Of a stretch of DNA of 64,000 nt, positions 5,603-34,363 are shown piece after piece. The notes beneath the pieces are model-generated. The model did not search any database. It was not told where the DNA came from and saw only the letters and a list, made by a program, of their open reading frames with translations. Both the position numbers and the translations under genes were made by a program. Origin of the DNA: a cyanobacterium endosymbiont of Epithemia clementina EcSB. GTDB taxonomy: Bacteria; Cyanobacteriota; Cyanobacteriia; Cyanobacteriales; Microcystaceae. Each line of letters starts with the position of its first letter. The stretch's first letter is position 1. The stretch spans positions 1,419,110-1,483,109 of the forward strand of contig NZ_CP123991.1 of NCBI RefSeq assembly GCF_029919255.1, in the 5' to 3' direction.

Positions 5603-7585
5603 TCAAGCTTCTTTGGCGGAAGAACGACGACGACGACGACGAATAACAGGGCGTTCAGAGTCACTTTCTGATAGTTTTGTTGATGCTGCTTTATCATCTG
5701 TCTTCTCCTCATTATCAGAAAACTCAGACACCTCAAGGGGAATAGATTGAGGAATAACAAATGATGTGTCTCCAGAAGGAATCTCTGGTTCCTCTTTTAC
5801 CTCTTGCATCTCTTGTTCCTCTCTTATTTCTTGTGTGTTCGACATATTTGCTGAATGTTCAGGAAACTTAACGGATACTAATACAGACTTAGGGTCTTTA
5901 AACTCACGATCAAGACACACTAGAGGAGAAACTCCCATTAAAGCATATAGGTCTTGTTCTAAAGGGGTCATTTCCACAGATACCTTTTCCATGAGTATTT
6001 CTTCTCGGCGTAAATGCCTATGCCCTCGTTCTTTCCTGGGTTCAGCTTCTATTTCTCCTAAATAGTCACTCTCTTTTACCACAAGATTGGGAACCATTTT
6101 AGTTGTTGACTCATCCTTGAATTGAGGTTGAGATTGACGGCGACGGCGACGACGAGTGGTATTGGGGGCATTACCCTGTTCTTGATAGCTTGGATGGTGA
6201 AGCAATTCCAGTTGACTGGAGGTCTGATGGATTTCATCTTCAAAACCAGATTCTCCAAGAATTTCAGGCTTTTCTACCGATTTTTCCACCGGTTTTACAA
6301 CAGGGGAAGAAGAAGCTACAGTAACCGTTTCTAAAGGAATCAATTCAGATTGTCCTGGAAGGCGAATCATATGTCCTAAACCGCCACAACTGGGACAGGG
6401 TTGACCAAATAATTCGTAAATATTTTTGCCTTGACGTTTTCGAGTCAGTTCAACTAAACCTAATTCAGAGAGTTGTGCAATTTGAGGTCTAGCTTTATCA
6501 GATTTGAGGGCTTTATTGAAATGTTCTAATAGCTTAAGTTGATCGCGCCGTGAGTCCATATCGATAAAGTCTACAATGATTACCCCTCCAATATTACGTA
6601 GACGCAATTGACGAGCAATTTCTGTGGCTGCTTCACTATTAGTCCACAGAACCGTTTCTCTGGCTGTTGCTGAACGAGTAAATGAACCAGAGTTAACATC
6701 AACAACTGTCAACGCTTCGGTGGGTTCAATGATGACATAACCGCCAGAAGGTAAATCAACCCTAGGTTTAAGCGCTTCTCGAATCGCGGCATTAACGCGA
6801 AAATAATCTAAAACTCCAAGATGTTCGCGGTGATGATCAATCAACACTCCTTCAGGAGAACGGCCACCACTCCAGTTCATTAAGTGCTGTTTTACTCGTT
6901 TTACCCCTGCCTGGGAATCTACAACAATGCGGTTTACCTCTGCACTATACATATCCCGTAACACCCGTTGAATAAAATCGTCATCACGGTTGAGTAGAGA
7001 AGGAGGACGGGTTGAAGTAGCCTGAACTTGAATAGATTCCCATTGTCGCTGGAGAAACTCTAAGTCTTCCATAATGGCTTCTTCAGCTTTCCCCTCGGCT
7101 TCTGTCCGAACAAGTAACCCCATTCCTGCTGGTTTAATCAAAATAGCTAAAGCACGTAGGCGACTACGTTCATCATCATTTTTAATTCTTCTAGAAAGGT
7201 TAACCCCTCGACCATAGGGCATTAAGACTAAGTACCGGCCTGGCAATGTAATATTCCCTGTGAGTCGTGGACCCTTATTGCCAGTAGGTTCTTTCATTAC
7301 CTGAACCAACACCTTTTGTTGAGGAGTCAACAATTCTGTAATGGCTCCCGCACTTCTTTTTAAGCGAAGAGGACCTAAATCGGTGACATGAATAAACCCA
7401 TTGCGTTCTGCATCCCCAATATTGACAAATGCTGCATCAATGCCTGGAATTACATTTTCGACTACTCCTAAATAAATGTCGCTAACTTGTTGGTTGCCAG
7501 TGGCAACCACTAGCTCTTGAATTTGATCTTCCCAGAAAACAGCAGCAATGTGGTGTTGCTCTGCGATAACAATTTGCTTTGGCAT
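5603..7585 (-). CDS. rne: Ribonuclease E/G family endoribonuclease
   Basis: The main single-strand endoribonuclease for mRNA turnover and rRNA/tRNA maturation. The 660-aa protein has an S1 RNA-binding domain (about residues 35-120, YLGVVENVIPGIDAAFVNIG), the 5'-sensor region, and a DNase I-like catalytic core with the two Mg-binding aspartates in VVDVNSGSF and VIIVDFIDM. A zinc-link motif CPSCGG follows at about residue 395. The C-terminal third is low-complexity and acidic, has an Arg tract in the middle (TTRRRRRRQ) and ends in RRRRRRSSAKEA. That terminal Arg-rich motif is the conserved cyanobacterial element reported to bind polynucleotide phosphorylase. The RNA-degradosome interaction is therefore probably kept. 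The upstream gap may include a long 5' UTR, as in other rne genes. Confidence 0.96.
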   Translation of the reverse strand: MPKQIVIAEQHHIAAVFWEDQIQELVVATGNQQVSDIYLGVVENVIPGIDAAFVNIGDAERNGFIHVTDLGPLRLKRSAGAITELLTPQQKVLVQVMKEPTGNKGPRLTGNITLPGRYLVLMPYGRGVNLSRRIKNDDERSRLRALAILIKPAGMGLLVRTEAEGKAEEAIMEDLEFLQRQWESIQVQATSTRPPSLLNRDDDFIQRVLRDMYSAEVNRIVVDSQAGVKRVKQHLMNWSGGRSPEGVLIDHHREHLGVLDYFRVNAAIREALKPRVDLPSGGYVIIEPTEALTVVDVNSGSFTRSATARETVLWTNSEAATEIARQLRLRNIGGVIIVDFIDMDSRRDQLKLLEHFNKALKSDKARPQIAQLSELGLVELTRKRQGKNIYELFGQPCPSCGGLGHMIRLPGQSELIPLETVTVASSSPVVKPVEKSVEKPEILGESGFEDEIHQTSSQLELLHHPSYQEQGNAPNTTRRRRRRQSQPQFKDESTTKMVPNLVVKESDYLGEIEAEPRKERGHRHLRREEILMEKVSVEMTPLEQDLYALMGVSPLVCLDREFKDPKSVLVSVKFPEHSANMSNTQEIREEQEMQEVKEEPEIPSGDTSFVIPQSIPLEVSEFSDNEEKTDDKAASTKLSESDSERPVIRRRRRRSSAKEA

Positions 7586-9006
7586 GCAATTCCCTCAAAC
7601 TTTTGTAGCCGACTAGAACACTTTATTAAGTCGAGTGCCTGTCGATATAGATTAGTCAAAAAACTGTCTAAATTTAGTCGCAATTGACTTCAAGCCAATG
7701 AAGAATCAACGAAAATTTACTCACCCTTATACTTTCACCCGAACGTCGGCTATCCAATTAAGCTGACGTAAGTAATCTCGTCTGAGGAGGTTGCTCGTTT
7801 TCTGGATGTATCTCTACCAATCTTAAAACGAGAATTGTCATTCGATATTTAGTGAACTCCTCTTTGAATAAACTTGTCAGCACCAACATTCATTGCATGC
7901 GAGATGCTTTCTAGGTGAATTGAGTTGATGATAGAACCAAAAAGAAACACTTTAATTGTTTCTAACAGTGAACTAATCAATGGTTACAGTCAACTAAACG
8001 GTTAAGTGCTATTTGTATTAAATTACTTCAGCTGGTTGAGTGATTTTGGTTTTGTTAGACATTAATCATTAAGGACAATCTACATACATAAATACCAGAT
8101 TATTTTAACCCAATTAAAACCTAGTTGAAAACCTAAAACCATACCATTAGCTCACTTTTAGTTTTTGGATAACGCTAATGTTACCCAATTGTTTCTATTC
8201 ACATCTCCAGGTTGAGCAACCAGTGTTAATCGTATTTCCTAGAATCCTATGTGTTTAGAAGTCAGATGTAACCCTATTTAGTCGCCCTAAGTAGATTCGT
8301 TTTCAGTTATAAGTATCATCCTAACATAAGATATGTCCGTCATTTATTTTTCTTATGTAGACTTGAAAGCTAATGCTCTAAGCACATCTTATAAACCTTT
8401 CTGAATTTTGATAAGAGAAACTTATCCCAAATCCGGTTATAAAAACTTACTTCAATTTGAAGAAAGGAAGAAGGCAGAAAGGAAGAGGGACAAAGATTTG
8501 AGAAAGTAAGAGAAAAAGGGGAATATCAAACCTAAATTGTGATGTCATGGGTTGACACAAAGTCAAAGTGTAGACTGGGGGTGAGGAGGTAAAAGGGAAA
8601 ATATTCGCCGAACTTTAACTCAATGGCAATTATATGCCAAAAAAATTCAGTTTTTTTTTCTTTTCTCAACTAAAAATTCAAACTACTCAGTAAGGGGAAA
8701 ATTTGTCACACTGAGTCTGTAGAATCCATTCATTGTTAAAAATTACGAATAAAAAACTCTTTATTTTAAATAAACAAACCGTGGAGTCAACAGAAGTAAG
8801 TCATCGGCATCATTAAAATTAGTGTAATAGTCTTAATTTCGGTTTGGGGGTTTTGCTCTCGATTTCTCCACTCTTCTCTAACATGAACAGAGATTTCTCA
8901 ACTGATAAAAGAGCCTCAATAGGTTAAGTTTTGCACGTTCTGCCCCTCTAAAAGAGGAAAATAAATGATTTTAAATCTATTATTAGAGCCTCTAGTTAAG
9001 AATAGG

Positions 9007-9184: not shown

Positions 9185-10748
9185 GCCAGTTAATATGATT
9201 GATCATTATTTTATTAACTTATTTAAAGTTATCTTTTCCTCTTAACAGATAGTTGTATAGACTAGCTAAGACAGAATAATTATAAATTGAAGTTAAAATT
9301 TTAGTTATTCTTTAATTTTTTTGTCTTTATTCTTTTTATGATTATTTAATGTATTTATAACAGAAGTATTAGTAGTCATTAGTTGCCAACTATAATATTT
9401 TTTAAAAGAAAAATAAAAAATAGTGTAAATTCCTATCTAGGATTTTTTTCATTAAAATAGTCCTATCTTAATACGGCTAGGTTTAGAAAAAAAGAAAATC
9501 AATATTTGCGTAATGTTAATGCAATACAAGCCATAAATATTTTTATGGCTAGAGATAGTTAGTTCGATTATTAAAGCTCAGTGATAAATAATAAATCTAC
9601 AATAAAAAGTAAAATTATCAGACAATTACTCTGATTGTGGTAAATTTTATGATCTCATAGTTATTGCATTTTTTCTATAGGGTTAAAAACCAATAATGAG
9701 GTTTACTAACTACGATGGTAGTATTCATGTTCTGTATCAACATAAATATAATTACTTTTAATGCCATTTAAGTTATTAATTAACTAAAAAATAAATACTT
9801 TTTTTGTCCTATTTTTTAGTAATCAAGGATAGTTCGCTGAATTACCTTCAAGCAACTAGTAAAATTTTATATTGGAAAAAGTAAATTAGCTTCAGTGACA
9901 ACTGTAACAATCATAGACTCTTTCAATATATTTATGTTAACAATTTATTTAAATAGCTCATAAATTATTCGCTTTTTTGTATCTATTATATCTGTGATTA
10001 TCGGTAATTAAAAGATCAACTATCTTGAATTAGATATTGAATAACCTAAAGTATAATTCTTATGTATTTTTCCTGAGACTTTCTTTTAGGTATGTTTTAA
10101 CCTATAGGATAGTTATCCTGCAAGGTATTAATAATTTCAATTGTTATAGTTTTAAAAATTTAATTTTCTAAAACTGTTTATCTTATCTAAGATAGCTTTT
10201 CATTCTTTGAATAAATTTAATTTTTAGCCTTATATTTATAAAATAATTTTTAGGAAATTTATGACTATAAAAAAAAGATTTTTACTATTTATGCTAGCCT
10301 ATACAGGCTATTATTAATAATAGCTAATTTTACTCTATATTTTGTCTATAAATAGTAAAAATCTAGTGATTTTATAAATTTTAAGTTCACCAAGCAATGT
10401 TTTAATTATTGATTTATATAAACAATTGATTGACTTAACTCTTTATTTAACTTTGGTTGTTGGTAAATTTATTAGTATCTTCAAAAGAAGATACTCCGAA
10501 TATATTTTTCTGTAAATGCTGCTGTCTTTTGCTTTAAAAGTTCTAATACCTTAAGACAACTAAAATTTTACAATAACTAAAATAAAAATTGCACTGGTAA
10601 AAAGTTTTTTTCTTTCTTAGATAAATGTTACTATAAGTAATAGTACGATTTTTTTCAAAAAAATTATGCTATCAATTTCTTCAAATAGCTGATTCTGTTA
10701 AATTATTAGACTGATGATTATGAAATTCATAAGAGAGCTTTCGCTAAA

Positions 10749-10791
10749 TAAATTTAAAACATCTTTCATGATGAGAGATGTTTTAAATTTA
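10749..10791. repeat. Perfect 16-bp hairpin
   Basis: Arms 10749-10764 and 10776-10791 are exact complements. It lies just upstream of the unidentified coding remnant. Confidence 0.85.
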
Positions 10792-10835
10792 TATCGTAAC
10801 TTTTGTCTCGATGCTTCCATAATTGAAAAAGCTAA

Positions 10836-11121
10836 TTAAGGGAATGAATCGTGCACTGACTACCTAGCTGATTCTCGTAAGATAGAGCAGGATAAAATAA
10901 AAAAACTTATCAAAGAAGAAAAGAGAATTACACCTTCTGGTTCTTGTATGACATAGTGTTCTGCATGAGGGATAAATTTAAACCTATTGGTCCGTAAATT
11001 ACAAGCTATTAAAAAGACTTTTTCTCCTGAGTCTGGGGAGTCGAGTGAATATAAGCGTTTGGAAGTTACAGGTGGTTCAGCTTATGCTGGAGCTGCTGTA
11101 TACATGAGTAGTCGAACATAG
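10836..11121 (+). pseudogene. Unidentified decayed coding sequence
   Basis: One frame reads DYLADSRKIEQDKIKKLIKE and ITPSGSCMT, then two stops (TAG, TGA). It continues as NLLVRKLQAIKKTFSPESGE and YKRLEVTGGSAYAGAAVYMS, with a stop shortly after. The composition (charged helix, then a Gly/Ala-rich strand) is protein-like rather than random AT-rich translation. I could not place it in a family; phycobiliproteins and phycobilisome linkers were considered and did not match. The adjacent DNA to about 11260 may belong to the same or a neighbouring dead gene. Confidence 0.4.
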
Positions 11122-11838
11122 CTTTATACTCTGTCTAGAAGTTTTAGCTCTTTTATCGAAAGTTGCTCCAATTTTTGTGACTCCAACAAAAAAAGAGCCC
11201 CATGACTAATTTGTATTGACATTAAGCCAATATTGACTCCCTTGGCAGTTGTTCCTTAAGTCTAAATAGATTAAGGTGAAATTCAAAAGGTTTTTACTTT
11301 TGTGTATTAAAATTTTACTTAATCTGTCATGTAGGACTAAATACTTCAAGAGGAAGGAACTAGAAACAGATTTTAACTTTTTAGTTGTTTAAGAGGACTA
11401 ATAATCATTCTACTTTCTTTTTAAAAGAAAGTGGGAGTCATATACATTTTTTTTTACGAGCACAATTATACTTTTTTAGTTATGATAAGAAGTGTTTTTT
11501 TCTTCACAAACTAAACCTTGTGTTATGTTTAAAAATTCTGATATACTTCCTTTCAGTATATAGCTTTCTATCTTCCTCTTTCATATTAACTTTGATTGAG
11601 GTAACACTTCTTTCAATCTGTTAAGTTCTACTATATGGTTGGTTCATTCTTAAGAAGAATTATAGTGATAAAGTCTTATTATTAAGCAATATTCATGCGT
11701 TTCTACCAACTTACTAAGTTTTTAAAGTTTTTGGTATTTTGATATTTTCTCGACTTTTTCTCCTAATTGTTTCTTGTTCTCGATTCTTAACTATCAGTTA
11801 ACTATTCTAAGTTTACTAGCACCGTATATAACAAAACT
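11122..11838. other. Spacer upstream of the M3 oligopeptidase
   Basis: No supported gene. A 79-codon open frame at 11385-11624 is Phe/Leu/Ser-rich, as expected for AT-rich non-coding DNA, and has no recognisable motif. Confidence 0.5.
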
Positions 11839-27586: not shown

Positions 27587-28465
27587 ATGTCTTCTTCAAC
27601 TTCGTTTGTATTAAATGGTAAAGCCTTAGCCAAAAAAATGCAGTGTGAACTCCAAGAATGGGTTCAAAAGCAACAACCTAGCATTGGCCGTCCTCCAGGA
27701 TTGGCCGTATTGATGGTAGGGGATGATCCAGCTAGTGCAGTTTATGTTCGTAATAAAGAGCTTGCTTGCGCTAAGACGGGAATTGCTTCTTTTGGTCATC
27801 ATTTCTCTGGCAATATCTCCCAAGATGAATTAGAAACCGTTATTAGACAACTCAATCAAGATCCGCGAGTAGATGGTATATTGGTCCAGTTACCTTTACC
27901 GGTCCATTTAGACGCAGTACAATTGTTACTGGCCATTGATCCCGATAAAGATGCTGATGGTCTTCATCCGATGAATTTAGGACGGTTAATGCGTGGTGAA
28001 CCAGGGTTACGCAGTTGCACCCCCGCGGGAGTCATGCGTCTTTTAGAAGAATATCAGATCGAAGTGGCAGGTAAACAAGCGGTGGTGGTAGGAAGAAGCA
28101 TTTTAGTGGGCAAACCATTAGGGTTAATGTTGCTTGAAAAAAATGCCACAGTAACTATGGCTCATTCTCAGACCCGAGATTTACGGAGTGTGACCCGTCA
28201 AGGGGATATTTTAATTGTTGCGGTTGGTAAACCAGAATTCATTAACGCAGATATGGTTAAACCTGGGGCGGTAGTTATTGACGTGGGAATTAATCGTGTT
28301 GTTCGAGCAGATGGAACTTCCCAACTAGTAGGGGATGTGGATTTCAACTCTGTGGTTAATACAGCGCAATATGTTACGCCAGTTCCTGGGGGAATAGGTC
28401 CTATGACTGTAGCAATGTTATTAAGTAATACGGTGTTGAGTTATCATCAGCGGGAGACACCATGA
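27587..28465 (+). CDS. folD: Bifunctional methylene-THF dehydrogenase/cyclohydrolase
   Basis: Interconverts methylene-, methenyl- and 10-formyl-tetrahydrofolate, supplying one-carbon units for purines and formyl-Met. Motifs: [18 protein letters not shown] with the catalytic Tyr and Lys, [11 protein letters not shown] in the folate site, [14 protein letters not shown] for NADP, and [13 protein letters not shown] near the end. 292 aa from ATG 27587 (the frame opens at a TTG two codons earlier); full length. The stop codon overlaps the next start (ATGA), implying translational coupling with the following two-repeat protein. It is divergent from the OB-fold gene. Confidence 0.96.
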
Positions 28466-28980
28466 ACGAATTTTCCCAGACTTATACTTGTGAGTTACCC
28501 CAAGGTAAAACCTGGCGGGTGTCCATTATCCCTGAGCGGGATGATGTAGATTTTGATTTGATGATTGAAGATCCCGTAGGCAATATTATTGCCCGAGATA
28601 ATAGTACTAATGCCGATGCTTATTGTACATTTACAAGTTTTGTAGGTGGAACCTATTTCTTTAGAGTAACATCGGTTAAAGGAAATTGTAAGTTTGCCAT
28701 TGATGTTAATCCAGTGACAATTATTTTTTCTCGTAATCATTACCATCATCTTGATAGTGGTGTTGTTTGGAAAGTTGCGGTGATTCCAACGGTGAAAAAT
28801 GTAGATTTTAATCTTTATATTGAAGATCCCAAGGGACAAGCAATTATTCAAGATAGTAGTCCCTATCCTTCTGCAACTTGTGTGTTTACCAGTACTGTTG
28901 AAGGTAACTATTGTTTTCGGGTTGAATCCCTTAAAGGAATGAGTGATTTCAATTTTAAAATTGAGAGATTAATTGAATAA
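28462..28980 (+). CDS. Two-repeat PPC-like domain protein
   Basis: 172 aa made of two copies of the same unit. Copy 1 has [20 protein letters not shown], then [20 protein letters not shown]. Copy 2 has [20 protein letters not shown], then [20 protein letters not shown]. The pattern (DxDLxIEDPxG, then GxYxFRV) resembles the beta-sandwich of bacterial pre-peptidase C-terminal (PPC) domains, but without a signal peptide or attached protease. The function is unknown. It begins within the folD stop codon (ATGA), so it is probably made together with FolD. The 600 bases after it are empty. Confidence 0.75.
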
Positions 28981-29631
28981 TTAAATTGATTTAAGTGTAT
29001 ATAAAAGTCATGAATAATCCCAATAACTTAGTTATCTTTAAGCTAAATTAGCTCAATATTTGTTATCTATAACAAAATTTTTAGGATTATCTTCTCAGAA
29101 GAGATTCAACAGAATAAAGACTTAAGAAAAGTAACCTAAATTTGATTAGATTAAGCTAATAATGAGAAACTAACTAGTGAAATACCAAATCCAAAAGACT
29201 TTGGAGTTAAAAATTAATAATATTTCTAAACCTATTAATTTTCCTTTTTTATCAACTTCAATTTGTCATTCATCTCTTCTACTGTTCCTCAAGTTTTTTC
29301 TTGGGAAAGATATACAATATTTTTTTTCTTTTCGACTAACTTTTTCAGCCTATAACATTAATTCATTTAAAGGTAAGCAATGAGAGGAGATTTTATATTC
29401 AAAATATCAAACCTCAATAAATGCTGCTTCTAGCATAGAGCTGCGGCTTTACTTTCTTTATGTTTGTGCGACTTGTCCGGAGGAGTACCACAAAATTTTC
29501 TTCTATTGTTAGAACAATTTTGTGGGGTAGTTCATTAGTATCTTCCATATCTGGAGTCTTTCTTTTAAGATTAAAGATCCAAACGCTATATATAGAGTTT
29601 GCTTCAACTAGTCTCGGATAAAGAAGGGATA
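28981..29631. other. Spacer before the replication-protein gene
   Basis: No supported gene. A segment at about 29385-29460 is similar to one at 52140-52215 (listed as a repeat). A short inverted repeat CCACAAAATT/AATTTTGTGG lies at 29488-29525. A 68-codon Phe/Ser-rich frame at 29177-29383 has no motif. Confidence 0.5.
29385..29460 (+). repeat. Diverged repeat, copy A
   Basis: Shares CTCAATAAATG, then a run of C/T and G/A differences, then CTGC-GCTTT-CTTTCT with copy B at 52140-52215. The 5' flank GAG-AGATTTTA-AT also matches. Most mismatches are transitions. What it derives from is unknown; a decayed mobile element is one option. Confidence 0.5.
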
Positions 29632-32600
29632 ATGAACCATAGACAGGAATGGCAAAATAGCGGTGTTGACGAACAATTGATTAACCTCAATGTGACAGCC
29701 TTAGAGGGCACTTCCCCTTTAGAGTATTTGTTCTATTCTGACGCACTTCCTAGACGTAATGATGGTCGAGTTAATAATTCCATTTTGAGACGTTATAAGC
29801 ATACAGAACGAGGAGGCTGGTGGTGTTCAGGAGTAGATCTGTTGACAGGCGGCGAGGATCTATGGGGATGTTTCAAACCCAATTCCCCCCGTATGAGTTA
29901 TGATGAGCACAAGTCAATTAAATATGAGCATCCCCCTAAAACATCGGCGGGGGTTTTCGCTTTGCGGGTCCCATTGCATCTATGGCGACAATTAGCCCAA
30001 CGCCACCACCTAAATATTACTCCAGAAGAGATTAATAATCAACTCCCAGATTTAGGTTTTTGGCAATGGGTTATAAATAATCCTTCGATCCCTCTTTGCA
30101 TTACTGAAGGGGCTAAAAAAGCGGGGGCGTTATTAACAGCAGGATATCCTGCAATCGCTCTTCCGGGAATTAATAATGGCTATCGAACCCCTAGAGATAA
30201 GTTAGGTAACCGAATCGGAAAGTCTCGTCTCATTCCACAACTCGAAAAACTAGCGATTTCGGGAAGAAAAATTTATATTGCTTTTGATCAAGATAGTAAA
30301 CCAAGTACTATTAAAGAAGTGAATTCTGCTATTAGAAAATTAGGAAGTTTATTTACTCGAGCAGGATGTCAAGTTAATGTCATTGTCTGGCTACCAAAAT
30401 GGGGAAAAGGAGTAGATGATTTTTTAGCTCATAAAGGACTCAAAACTTTTGACGAAGCTTACGAAAAAGCCTTATCTCTAGAAACTTGGAAAGCACAAGG
30501 TTTAAGTCAATTAACTTATCCTTCTGATGTTGAGCTTAATACTCGATATTTAGGAGATTTATCTATTCCTATAAATGCTAAATTAGTAGGAATAAAATCT
30601 CCAATAGGGACTGGAAAAACTAAGGCCATTGAAAAGATTGTCGAACAGGCTATCGCTCGTAAACAAAAGATATTAGTAATTGGTCATCGAGTTAAGTTAG
30701 TCGAACAACTTTGTCAACGATTTCAAATTCCTTATTTAACAGAAATTAAAAAAAATAATATTGAAAATATAAAAGGATGTGGACTTTGTATTGATTCTCT
30801 TCATCCTAATTCTTTATCTAAGTTTAATCCTAGTGATTGGATAGACAGTCTAATTATTATTGATGAAGTTGAACAGGTTTTATGGCATGGATTAAACTCA
30901 AAGACTTGTAAAGAAAACAGGGTTTCTATTCTAAGAACTTTTAAGAAGCTACTTGAACAAAACTTAGAATTTCAAGGAAAAATAGTTATTGCTGATGCAG
31001 ACTTAAGTGATATTTCTCTTGACTATTTAATTTCTTTGATGGGAATTAAATTAAAACCGTTCATTGTAATTAACAATTGGAAATCTAACAATAAAGAAGC
31101 ATGGGGAGTATATAACTATCCGGAAACCACTCCCCAAGAATGGCTTAAAGATTTAGTACAACACATTCAGCAAGGGGGTAAACCTTTTGTTTGTTTATCC
31201 GCTCAGAAATTAACTAGTAAGTGGGGGACACAAACCCTAGAATTTTACTTAAAAAAGCGATTCCCAGAGGTGAGAATCCTAAGGATTGATTCTGAATCGT
31301 TAACCGACCCTAATCATAACGCTTACCAATCTATCAACCACCTTAATCAAATTCTATTAAACTACGATATCATTTTGGCTAGTCCTTCCATTGAGACGGG
31401 AGTCAGTATAGATATTAAAGATCATTTTACCTCCGTTTGGGGATTAGCTCAAGGGATACAAACTGCCACGTCTGTCTGTCAATCAATAGGACGAATTCGT
31501 GATAATATTCCTCGTTATCTTTGGTGTGCTTCCTATGGGTTTAATAAGGTGGGAAATGGTTCTACTTCAATTCCTAATTTATTAACTTCTAGTAATCGTG
31601 TTACTCAGTTAAATATTAAATTATTACAACAATCTGACCTAGAAGCCTTAGATGATATAGATACAGAATTTCAAGCAGAGTCTTTACTTTGTTGGGCAAA
31701 AATGGCGGTTCGTGTTAATGTTTCAATGACTCATTATCGAGAGTCGATATTAAAAAATATTACCGACCAAAATCATCCTGTTTTTCGTAAGAAGAAACTG
31801 GTAAAAATTCAAGAAACAACAAAACATAAAAAATGTTCGTCTAATAGCAATAATTCTCACCAATTAATAAAAGCCATTGAAAGTATTAGAGAACAAAATT
31901 ATAAAGAAGAATGTCTAATGATTTCCCAAGGCAATGAAATTACTAAACAACAATATCAAGCGTTAAATAAGAGGTTAGTTAAAACTGTGGTCGAACGACA
32001 TAACATCAAAAAATATAATTTACAAAAACGTTATTGTATTGAAGTAACTCCTCAATTAGTTGCCTTAGATAATGAAGGATTGTACGATAAACTTCGTATC
32101 CATTATTTCTTAACTTTAGGGCGTTCTTATTTAGCAGATAGAGATACCATTCTTGCAAAAAAAATCATAGAAAAAGGACAGGGGAGTCTTTTCGTGCCTG
32201 ATTTTAATAGTTCTCAATTAGGGGGAATTATTGGGACGATGGAGGTGTTGGGAATTCCGGTGTTACTCATGAACCATGAACGAAAGTTAAAGCCCACGGA
32301 TGAAGACTTGCAAGCTATGGCAAAAATTGCCATTAAAAATCGCACTGAAATCAAAACTATTATGGGAATTGGTATTGCTAAAAATTCTAGTCCTATCACA
32401 ATTATACGGCGCTTGTTAGATAAAATTGGCTATGGATTAACTTGTATTGGTTCTAAAAAAGTTGATAAAAAGCGAGTGAGGGTGTACCAGGTTGTTCTTC
32501 CCGATGATGCTAGAAAAGAGGTATTTAGACAATGGTGGATAAGAGATGAAAAATCCCCAGGCAGTTCTGAACCCTGGTTTGAAGAATATACAAATGGTAA

Positions 32601-32667
32601 GTCAGAAATGGCTAGAATTCAGCAAGAGGAAAACAAAAATTATATTCAATTAAGTTTAGAATTTTAG
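29632..32667 (+). CDS. Plasmid-type replication protein (CyRepA1/DUF3854-like)
   Basis: A 1011-aa protein, the largest in the window. The N-terminal part has a Toprim-like DUF3854 region: CITEGAKKAGALLTAGYPAI at about residue 156, then KIYIAFDQDSKP at about 213. A helicase-type ATPase follows: Walker A SPIGTGKTKAIE at about 322, Walker B-like LIIIDEVEQVLWHG at about 407, and a motif VI-like SVCQSIGRIRDNIPR at about 615. This primase/helicase layout matches the replication proteins of small cyanobacterial plasmids. I start at ATG 29632, preceded by GAAGGG, rather than the upstream TTG. No partition or copy-control gene is adjacent and the neighbours are chromosomal, so it is probably a chromosomal copy. 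The exact role is inferred. Confidence 0.75.
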   Translation: MNHRQEWQNSGVDEQLINLNVTALEGTSPLEYLFYSDALPRRNDGRVNNSILRRYKHTERGGWWCSGVDLLTGGEDLWGCFKPNSPRMSYDEHKSIKYEHPPKTSAGVFALRVPLHLWRQLAQRHHLNITPEEINNQLPDLGFWQWVINNPSIPLCITEGAKKAGALLTAGYPAIALPGINNGYRTPRDKLGNRIGKSRLIPQLEKLAISGRKIYIAFDQDSKPSTIKEVNSAIRKLGSLFTRAGCQVNVIVWLPKWGKGVDDFLAHKGLKTFDEAYEKALSLETWKAQGLSQLTYPSDVELNTRYLGDLSIPINAKLVGIKSPIGTGKTKAIEKIVEQAIARKQKILVIGHRVKLVEQLCQRFQIPYLTEIKKNNIENIKGCGLCIDSLHPNSLSKFNPSDWIDSLIIIDEVEQVLWHGLNSKTCKENRVSILRTFKKLLEQNLEFQGKIVIADADLSDISLDYLISLMGIKLKPFIVINNWKSNNKEAWGVYNYPETTPQEWLKDLVQHIQQGGKPFVCLSAQKLTSKWGTQTLEFYLKKRFPEVRILRIDSESLTDPNHNAYQSINHLNQILLNYDIILASPSIETGVSIDIKDHFTSVWGLAQGIQTATSVCQSIGRIRDNIPRYLWCASYGFNKVGNGSTSIPNLLTSSNRVTQLNIKLLQQSDLEALDDIDTEFQAESLLCWAKMAVRVNVSMTHYRESILKNITDQNHPVFRKKKLVKIQETTKHKKCSSNSNNSHQLIKAIESIREQNYKEECLMISQGNEITKQQYQALNKRLVKTVVERHNIKKYNLQKRYCIEVTPQLVALDNEGLYDKLRIHYFLTLGRSYLADRDTILAKKIIEKGQGSLFVPDFNSSQLGGIIGTMEVLGIPVLLMNHERKLKPTDEDLQAMAKIAIKNRTEIKTIMGIGIAKNSSPITIIRRLLDKIGYGLTCIGSKKVDKKRVRVYQVVLPDDARKEVFRQWWIRDEKSPGSSEPWFEEYTNGKSEMARIQQEENKNYIQLSLEF

Positions 32668-32821
32668 AAATTTGCTTTAACCGTTGATCTCAAAAACTAT
32701 ATTTCTTAGAGTGAATTAGATAAAGGTTAGATTTTTAACGAAAAAATAATAAGTTCTTATCTGCGTCGTAACCCCAGGATGAGGAATCAATCTAAGTATA
32801 TTGAAAGAATTAAATATCAGT

Positions 32822-32852
32822 GGGGTATTACCATCGTGGATGGTAATACCCC
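32822..32852. repeat. Hairpin 1 of an overlapping pair (14 bp)
   Basis: GGGGTATTACCATC (32822-32835) pairs with GATGGTAATACCCC (32839-32852), loop GTG. Its 3' arm shares 32846-32852 with hairpin 2, so both cannot form at once. Confidence 0.92.
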
Positions 32853-32889
32853 CGTAGAGACTTTTTATACAGGGTCTCTACGGGGGTAT
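32846..32889. repeat. Hairpin 2 of an overlapping pair (16 bp)
   Basis: ATACCCCCGTAGAGAC (32846-32861) pairs with GTCTCTACGGGGGTAT (32874-32889), loop of 12 with a T5 run. It is much richer in G and C than its surroundings. It could be a bidirectional terminator for the two convergent genes, an attenuator-like switch, or a replication-related site beside the Rep gene. Confidence 0.92.
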
Positions 32890-33010
32890 GAGGCAACAAA
32901 TCAAGAGATCTTTAGATGCAGACTTGTATATTATAGTAACCAGAAAATTTTAGGAGAAACCTAATGGATTTGCTGATCAAATCTTCCCTGAATTTTACGA
33001 CAAAAAAAAT

Positions 33011-34363
33011 TTAACGCATGGTCACAAACTCTTCAGCAGAACTTGGATGAATCCCAATAGTAGCATCAAAATCAGCCTTTTTAGCTCCCATCTTTACTGC
33101 AATCGCTACTCCTTGAATGATTTCGGCAGCATGATCTCCTACCATGTGTGCGCCTAAAACCCTATCACTTTCTTGATGAACAACAAGTTTCATTAAAGTT
33201 TTTTCCTCTTTGTCAGGTAGTACATAATACATAGGCCGAAACTCGCTACTATACACTTTGATAGCATTCTTCCCATATTGTTCTTTAGCTTTTGCTTCAG
33301 TCAATCCTACTGTAGCAGCCTCTGGAGTACTAAAAACGGCAGATGGGACATTTTCATAACTCATTAGATGCGATTTTCCCCCAAATTTGGTGTCAGCGAA
33401 GGCTCGGCCTTCACTAATGGCGACAGGAGTAAGATTAATACGATCTGTACAGTCTCCGACTGCATATATATTCGGTTCGGTGGTTTGACTATATTTATTG
33501 ACAGCGATCGCTCCATTTTGTACTTCAACCTCTGTATTTTCTAATCCTAAGTTCTCTAAGTTAGGGATACGTCCAGTAGCAGCTAACCCAATGGTATCAG
33601 CCAACACCATGTCATTATTGCTATCTCCTTCTAGAGAAATTATTAAACCTTGGTTTGTCTTTTTTACTTCAGAGATGGAACAGTTCTTCAGGATGCGAAT
33701 ACCATGTTTTTCCATAGACTCTTGGATAGTAGATCGGAGATCTTCATCAAACCCTTTCAAGATTTTATCGCGGCGAATAATCTGGATCACATCTGATCCC
33801 AGTCCATGCATAATACAGGCAAATTCTACCCCAATGTAACCGCCTCCCCAAATGACGACGCGCTTGGGTTGTTCAGGTAGCTCAAACATACTATCAGAGG
33901 TTGCTAAATATTCTTTCCCTGGAATGTCAGGTTTAACGGGACGTCCTCCTACAGCAATTAAAACTTTATCAGCGGTAACTTTGGTATCTCCCACTTCTAT
34001 GGTGTTGGGGTCGAGTAATTTACCATGGGCACGATACAGTTGAACATTGGATTTATCCAACATTTTTTGGTAAATACCATTGAGACGATCAACTTCCCTA
34101 TTGATGGCGGCTATCATTTTAGGCCAGTCGAGGATACTTTTAACCGGACTCCATCCGTATCCTTGGGACTCTTCCAAGAGGCTGGGGAAGTGAGAAGTAT
34201 ACACCATTAACTTTTTGGGAATACATCCTCTGTTAACACAGGTTCCCCCTAGACGATTAAATTCTGCTAACCCGACTTTAGCTCCATATTCGGCAGCGCG
34301 TCTAGCAGTAGCAATGCCTCCTGAACCACCACCAATGACGAATAAATCAAAATCAAAACTCAT
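33011..34363 (-). CDS. gor: Glutathione-disulfide reductase
   Basis: An NADPH-dependent flavoenzyme that regenerates reduced glutathione. The 450-aa protein has the FAD site GGGSGGIATARRAAEYGAKV at its N-terminus, the redox-active disulfide in GGTCVNRGCIPKK, the NAD(P)-binding stretch WGGGYIGVEFACIMHGLG, and the C-terminal catalytic His-Glu in IGIHPSSAEEFVTMR. The ending HPSSAEE and the absence of a lipoyl or mercury module favour glutathione reductase over dihydrolipoamide dehydrogenase. A HIP1 octamer lies at 33504-33511 within the gene. With peroxiredoxin in the same window it points to maintained redox defence, useful for an oxygen-sensitive nitrogen fixer. Confidence 0.94.
   Translation of the reverse strand: MSFDFDLFVIGGGSGGIATARRAAEYGAKVGLAEFNRLGGTCVNRGCIPKKLMVYTSHFPSLLEESQGYGWSPVKSILDWPKMIAAINREVDRLNGIYQKMLDKSNVQLYRAHGKLLDPNTIEVGDTKVTADKVLIAVGGRPVKPDIPGKEYLATSDSMFELPEQPKRVVIWGGGYIGVEFACIMHGLGSDVIQIIRRDKILKGFDEDLRSTIQESMEKHGIRILKNCSISEVKKTNQGLIISLEGDSNNDMVLADTIGLAATGRIPNLENLGLENTEVEVQNGAIAVNKYSQTTEPNIYAVGDCTDRINLTPVAISEGRAFADTKFGGKSHLMSYENVPSAVFSTPEAATVGLTEAKAKEQYGKNAIKVYSSEFRPMYYVLPDKEEKTLMKLVVHQESDRVLGAHMVGDHAAEIIQGVAIAVKMGAKKADFDATIGIHPSSAEEFVTMR

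Follow-up and report, generated by a model that had tools for sequence, protein, structure and literature searches.

A chromosomal CyRepA1-family gene with a predicted NrdR operator in the DnaA-less cyanobacterial endosymbiont of Epithemia clementina

The CyRepA1 locus

The window analyzed here is a stretch of 64,000 nt from the genome of the cyanobacterial endosymbiont of Epithemia clementina EcSB (G000; 3.07 Mb, single contig, 99.78% complete). The longest frame in the window was a CyRepA1-family ORF, open on the forward strand from TTG 29599 to a stop at 32667 (1022 codons/aa), and the runner-up had 691 aa. ATG 29632 is the likely start rather than TTG 29599, because the MNHRQEW position is where most orthologues in the alignment start and because the second of two predicted NrdR boxes in the leader extends to 29598. 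The features of the locus are as follows:

29528..29631, forward strand: conserved leader upstream of the ATG (29528-29598 aligned with seven relatives, 29599-29631 read by eye)
29542..29557, no strand assigned: predicted NrdR box 1, CTTCCATATCTGGAGT, a 16-bp palindrome scoring 14.1 bits with an RNR-trained matrix
29583..29598, no strand assigned: predicted NrdR box 2, ACGCTATATATAGAGT, a 16-bp palindrome scoring 18.6 bits, 41 bp from box 1
29632..32667, forward strand: chromosomal CyRepA1-family protein of 1011 aa with a DUF3854/Toprim-like domain and an SF2-type helicase region (ORF, NF042913, PF12965, motif residues, dN/dS)
30058..30441, forward strand: DUF3854 (Toprim-like) domain with E159, D219/D221, and D262/D263 in the numbering of the 1011-aa protein (PF12965 match, motif residues)
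30577..32442, forward strand: CyRepA1 model match, helicase region with Walker A (IGTGKT), IDEVE box, and QSIGRIRD motif (NF042913, motif residues)

The 1011-aa protein scored 542.1 bits against the CyRepA1 profile NF042913 (curated cut-off 200), which makes it a family member by score, and 179 bits against the DUF3854 profile PF12965. It had the CyRepA1 layout of an N-terminal DUF3854 domain and a helicase region, and the Toprim-like, Walker A, DEVE, and motif-VI residues were all intact. E159, K162, D219, D262, D263, K329, D411, E412, R621, and R623 were kept in 43/43 rows of the 44-row chromosomal clade described below, counted without the broken copy of G023, which has an in-frame TAA. The gene was the sole NF042913 match over the cut-off in G000, with the second match far below it at 26.6 bits. 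A search of solved structures by sequence returned nothing convincing for the protein (best E 0.056), and an AlphaFold model built with 6 close sequences was too poor for use (mean pLDDT 39.8).

A preliminary description, made from the DNA letters and ORF translations, had portrayed the gene as an intact protein resembling plasmid replication proteins and as the largest target for mutation in the window of an eroding chromosome. The open frame, the profile scores, and the rank of the frame bear this out, and erosion is plausible given that stop-to-stop frames of at least 120 aa covered 31, 62, and 45% of the successive thirds of the window.

Phylogeny, gene order, and selection

A tree of 76 CyRepA proteins, inferred by a quick method, placed the window gene in a clade of 44 rows with an SH-aLRT support of 100; the long-branch warning issued by the tool concerned branches outside this clade. 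Besides the window gene, the clade held the copy with the best score from most relatives. The plasmid and other paralogues tested fell outside it, and so did five f25-family genes, partly from draft contigs, which had no boxes. For the 28 genomes common to both, the CyRepA1 and RNase E trees agreed in 16 of 25 splits, compared with 0.2 common splits on average and never more than 3 in 500 label shuffles. Both strong conflicts involved the pairing of G025 with G039 in the RNase E tree, where these two have long branches.

In G000 and in three related genomes of the endosymbiont type (G002, G003, and G005), CyRepA1 had the same neighbors in the same order: folD and a PPC-domain gene (or what remains of it) before it, gor and other genes after it. 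The PPC-domain gene (28462-28980 in the window) was itself open in G000, G003, and G005, and was represented in G002 by a short piece only, with 2 stops in the 48 codons compared. Strain SU2 (G001, 5.2 Mb), which has DnaA, carried CyRepA1 with the downstream neighbors gor and 36069 as in the window. In G004 and G006, no window neighbor of CyRepA1 was found within the 20 kb examined.

Pairwise dN/dS of CyRepA1 between G000 and G005, G002, and G003 was 0.119, 0.180, and 0.142, respectively, with 1011/1011 codons aligned and no stops. These values were similar to those of folD (0.119, 0.139, 0.094) and gor (0.126, 0.152, 0.124) for the same pairs. Selection is therefore at work on the intact frame, one of the two explanations that the preliminary description had offered for it. 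The same description had named two observations that would refute its reading: free-living relatives with ordinary dnaA carrying the gene at the same place, as a plain conserved gene, which SU2 largely provides, and a neutral substitution ratio, in place of which the values here (0.12-0.18) indicate purifying selection.

Taken together, these comparisons show, at the level of sequence, a chromosomal orthologue from an old CyRepA1 lineage within this order of cyanobacteria, passed on by vertical descent and maintained by purifying selection. Judged by descent, it is an ordinary conserved chromosomal gene. It stands as a CyRepA1 member by sequence, yet not as a "plasmid protein", and its location on a 3.07-Mb single contig together with its place in the chromosomal clade does not qualify it as plasmid-borne.

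Predicted NrdR boxes in the leader

Some 70 nt of the leader had 76-93% identity between G000 and G001, G004, G006, G008, G013, G014, and G021, and none of these seven had a window gene upstream of CyRepA1 in the stretches compared. The two palindromes in the leader resemble the NrdR box. The pattern ACRCTANATATAGNGT had a single zero-mismatch match in the G000 genome, at box 2. We trained a matrix on the boxes in RNR promoters of 19 genomes, first located with the assumed NrdR consensus, so that the RNR scores are partly self-trained. The CyRepA1 leaders were unseen in training. The main scan covered spacings of 31, 32, 40, 41, and 42 bp, and the pair threshold of 3.5 bits was chosen after the controls were scored.

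Box pairs above 3.5 bits were present in 42/44 clade rows and in 10/12 further homologues, or 52/56 leaders, which include many close relatives and do not amount to 56 independent cases. The clade count is made up of 36/38 rows, 3/3 rows scored separately (G033, G023, and G041, the 3 of 41 loci missed by the N-terminal motif), and another 3/3 (G399, G020, G027). The 12 further homologues (G341, G401, G362, G389, G304, G299, G315, G364, G366, G038, G260, G419) are absent from the tree and were taken as orthologues on identity alone (43-60%). Both boxes scored above zero in 38/56 leaders, and in 14 of the 52 positive pairs one box was at or below zero and the other carried the score (e.g. G002, G035, and G399). 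G002 and G035 encode NrdR, so loss of NrdR does not account for a weak box. The leaders lacking a box pair were those of G038 and of G341, G380, and G382 in genus g57. These three g57 genomes have a clade-type CyRepA1 without NrdR boxes, and DnaA was absent in G380 and G382 and present in G341.

None of the controls exceeded the threshold: 0/31 paralogues (maximum -4.3 bits), 0/5 plasmid homologues, the five examined of 235 records (maximum 2.8 bits), and 0/182 background upstream regions (maximum -0.6 bits). The plasmid homologue scoring 2.8 bits had two weakly positive boxes (0.8 and 2.0). Three of an original 185 background entries were dropped because each scored identically to, and was in fact, the operator of G016, G014, or G011 read from a divergent ORF.

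The boxes in G000 are 41 bp apart start to start, which corresponds to a 25-bp spacer. Most genomes had a spacing of 40-42 bp; in G304 and the five genomes belonging to families f26 and f27 it was 31 bp, giving spacers of 24-26 or 15 bp. A separate scan that left the spacing free over 20-59 bp picked 40-42 bp in 24/38 leaders. NrdR proteins of four bacteria have been reported to bind box pairs with spacers of 14-17 or 24-27 bp (PMC12051234), and the spacers found here fall within these two classes, that of G000 within the latter.

NrdR was found over the cut-off in 54/59 sampled genomes, including G000 (G000:C1:2069503, 227.8 bits), and G013, G021, G046, and G047 had no NrdR match. At E<=1e-20, RNR had no match in G046 and G039. 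RNR-promoter scores were lowest in three of the NrdR-less genomes, G013 (4.3), G021 (7.6), and G047 (-4.9), whereas the training set of 19 genomes gave 21.6-38.0; this difference supports reading the motif as an NrdR box. The CyRepA1 pair was also weak in G013 (6.4) and G021 (9.9), where the gene is still open, but this argument is soft because pairs were weak despite the presence of NrdR in G024 (3.8) and G035 (8.6).

Within G000, two strong boxes occurred at only RNR (19.0 + 18.6) and CyRepA1 (14.1 + 18.6) among 45 box-like sites, in a scan seeded by at most 2 mismatches to one CyRepA1-leader pattern, from which weaker operators would escape. The third-best paired site (20.4 bits) was rejected: only one of its boxes is strong (21.0, against -0.6 for the other), and the site falls within a long open frame. 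In genus g7, RNR adjoined CyRepA1 divergently in 5/7 genomes, and no RNR was seen beside CyRepA1 in the short stretch examined of the other two, G419 and G020.

The two 16-bp boxes of the G000 leader match RNR promoters of its own lineage, and in most of the sampled leaders the comparison shows a paired, operator-like site resembling those ahead of RNR in the respective genomes. The CyRepA1 gene appears to be under the same switch as RNR, through a predicted NrdR operator.

Proposed role in chromosome replication

We propose that the gene probably encodes a long-established chromosomal helicase-primase, with expression tied to the supply of dNTPs and a function in replication priming, restart, or DnaA-independent initiation. 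NrdR would repress the CyRepA1 gene together with RNR at high dATP and release it as DNA synthesis draws dNTPs down. The helicase region of the protein would unwind DNA, and the Toprim-like domain would prime or organize priming. CyRepA1 would in this way serve chromosome replication in step with dNTP supply, whether by restart, origin-independent priming, or DnaA-independent initiation. The full-length copies in all nine DnaA-less family genomes sampled (below) speak for this proposal. Several observations count against it, namely the boxless leaders of G341, G380, G382, and G038, the one-box pairs (14/52), and the retention of the gene without NrdR in G013 and G021. The DnaA-less genomes that lack the gene, the lack of an origin-like GC-skew switch (both below), and the broken copy in G023 count against it as well.

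The same data would fit a plain repair helicase. CyRepA1 could be a replication-stress or repair helicase-primase that serves restart at stalled forks and is no initiator, a serious candidate that we nonetheless do not favor. An operator shared with RNR would suit release of the gene at times of dNTP shortage, the helicase motifs are present, and CyRepA1 is found in DnaA-bearing relatives as well. The characterized relatives, however, are reported as plasmid replication proteins (PMC9978351, PMC10079941), and the PHROG profile matches of the 1011-aa protein include replication and origin-binding families.

A more specific version of the replication role is that this plasmid-family replication protein has long belonged to the machinery that copies the chromosome in the order, tied by NrdR to dNTP supply and working as a DnaA-independent initiator. 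We put this forward tentatively and would not be surprised to see it fail. If true, a DnaA-independent initiator would help explain the loss of DnaA in several lineages, including the diatom endosymbionts and the very reduced G013 and G021 (1.44 and 1.49 Mb).

Absence of DnaA and the question of replacement

The DnaA profile PF00308 had no match in G000, and the same search was positive in 13/14 control genomes, which answers the check for dnaA suggested in the preliminary description. DnaA loss has been reported for the symbiont of Epithemia turgida and for Atelocyanobacterium symbionts (PMC7198777), and for UCYN-A also in PMC6315102. Our class sample contained 18/388 genomes without DnaA.

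These absences raise the reading that CyRepA1 is the chromosomal initiator that took the place of DnaA in these endosymbionts, which we regard as unlikely. Full-length CyRepA1 was present in 9/9 DnaA-less family genomes sampled (G000, G002, G003, G005, G009, G013, G019, G021, G026), members of the CyRepA1 family are described as plasmid replication proteins (PMC9978351), and the predicted NrdR-type operator would suit such a function. Against this, CyRepA1 was not enriched where DnaA had been lost. In the order sample, matches over the cut-off occurred in 13/18 DnaA-less and 67/80 DnaA-bearing genomes (p=0.31, kinship ignored), and a clade-like score in 6/18 and 28/80 (p=1, kinship ignored), with G034 counted as clade-like by score yet outside the clade in the tree. 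Five genomes of this sample (G047, G181, G309, G335, G351) had neither DnaA nor CyRepA1 over the cut-off, and in the family sample 35/36 genomes had a match over the cut-off whether DnaA was present or not. GC skew over 20 sampled 20-kb stretches and the window had no origin-like switch at the CyRepA1 locus; it tracked the coding strand (r=0.77), with a two-arm residual of p=0.90.

The co-occurrence and skew results weigh against a general replacement of DnaA, not against a replication role, and we rejected general replacement as an explanation. The suggestion in the preliminary description that the gene was taken over for chromosome replication is thus divided: the predicted operator supports a replication-linked role, and neither the co-occurrence nor the GC skew that was to be inspected at the locus supports a takeover from DnaA. 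In G032, dnaA (7538-8020, forward strand) and CyRepA1 (9680-11623, reverse strand) lie convergently on one small contig (L051, G032:C158).

Plasmid-related explanations

Several rhopalodiacean endosymbionts are reported to carry a small (~6 kb) extrachromosomal fragment or plasmid (PMC5638926, PMC12903740), and CyRepA1-family members replicate plasmids, so the window gene could act in trans for that element. This is improbable, as the gene is conserved to the same degree across many further members of the family. To our knowledge, no such small plasmid occurs in those other genomes.

In the region 28900-33100, no attachment-like direct repeats flanked CyRepA1 as a pair, the repeats found being imperfect and two-copy only, and there was no iteron array next to the gene. 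Matches were found in 235 plasmid records, none with at least 60% identity and the top-listed one at 50.9%, in a search that may leave out records near the window's own genome. Because of its clade, the agreement with RNase E, the gene order, the dN/dS values, and the lack of a close plasmid match, we read the gene as a conserved chromosomal one and not as a recent plasmid guest. The preliminary description had entertained a recent arrival and an integrated plasmid. That the gene came in recently, or is what remains of an integrated or decaying plasmid, is hardly credible: the family was characterized on plasmids and paralogues sit on small contigs or plasmids of relatives, but the vertical tree, the gene order identical in four genomes, purifying selection, the lack of attachment-like repeats in 28900-33100, and the distance of all plasmid matches speak against it.

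Comparison with known systems

CyRepA1 has been described as the Rep of pSYSA (Slr7037) in Synechocystis (PMC9978351). The window gene has the family (542 bits) and the DUF3854/helicase layout in common with Slr7037, a likeness established via the NF042913 profile. It differs in being chromosomal and vertically inherited, with a replication function that is a candidate only, and in having a predicted NrdR-type operator where pSYSA is reported to have an sRNA/antisense region (PMC9978351).

Chromosomal CyRepA homologues have been counted in 80/145 cyanobacteria, with their function said to need validation (PMC10899382), and the window gene is one of this kind. The text of that paper, as far as it was available to us, makes no mention of NrdR, of a single orthologous clade, or of retention in DnaA-less endosymbionts, and a text search of the cyanobacterial CyRepA papers found no mention of NrdR either. 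Among the matches listed in our literature search, no title or start of an abstract joined NrdR with CyRepA; an entry in a regulog database may exist. The predicted regulatory tie between CyRepA1 and dNTP synthesis is absent from the literature we found and gives the gene a testable role in chromosome replication. It also offers a functional clue for chromosomal CyRepA genes that have so far been counted in print.

The NrdR regulon is reported to comprise RNR genes and, in Pseudomonas, topA (PMC4409342). The CyRepA1 leader resembles it in the pair of 16-bp palindromes, the bound-class spacers, and the position near the start of a DNA-synthesis gene. It is unlike the known regulon in that the predicted target is a Rep-family helicase-primase.

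As in the DnaA-independent cyanobacterial replication described in PMC7198777, G000 lacks DnaA and has no regular GC-skew pattern in the stretches sampled. The part of that report available to us names no initiator, and some DnaA-less genomes here lack CyRepA1. The window gene provides a concrete lead on how replication may start without DnaA in cyanobacteria and their endosymbiotic relatives, as a candidate Rep-family helicase-primase that is seemingly controlled with RNR and can be tested in free-living relatives.

Directly downstream of the CyRepA1 gene, at 32822-32889 of the window, lie nested perfect inverted repeats with 14-nt and 16-nt arms, perhaps a MITE-like or other small repeat.
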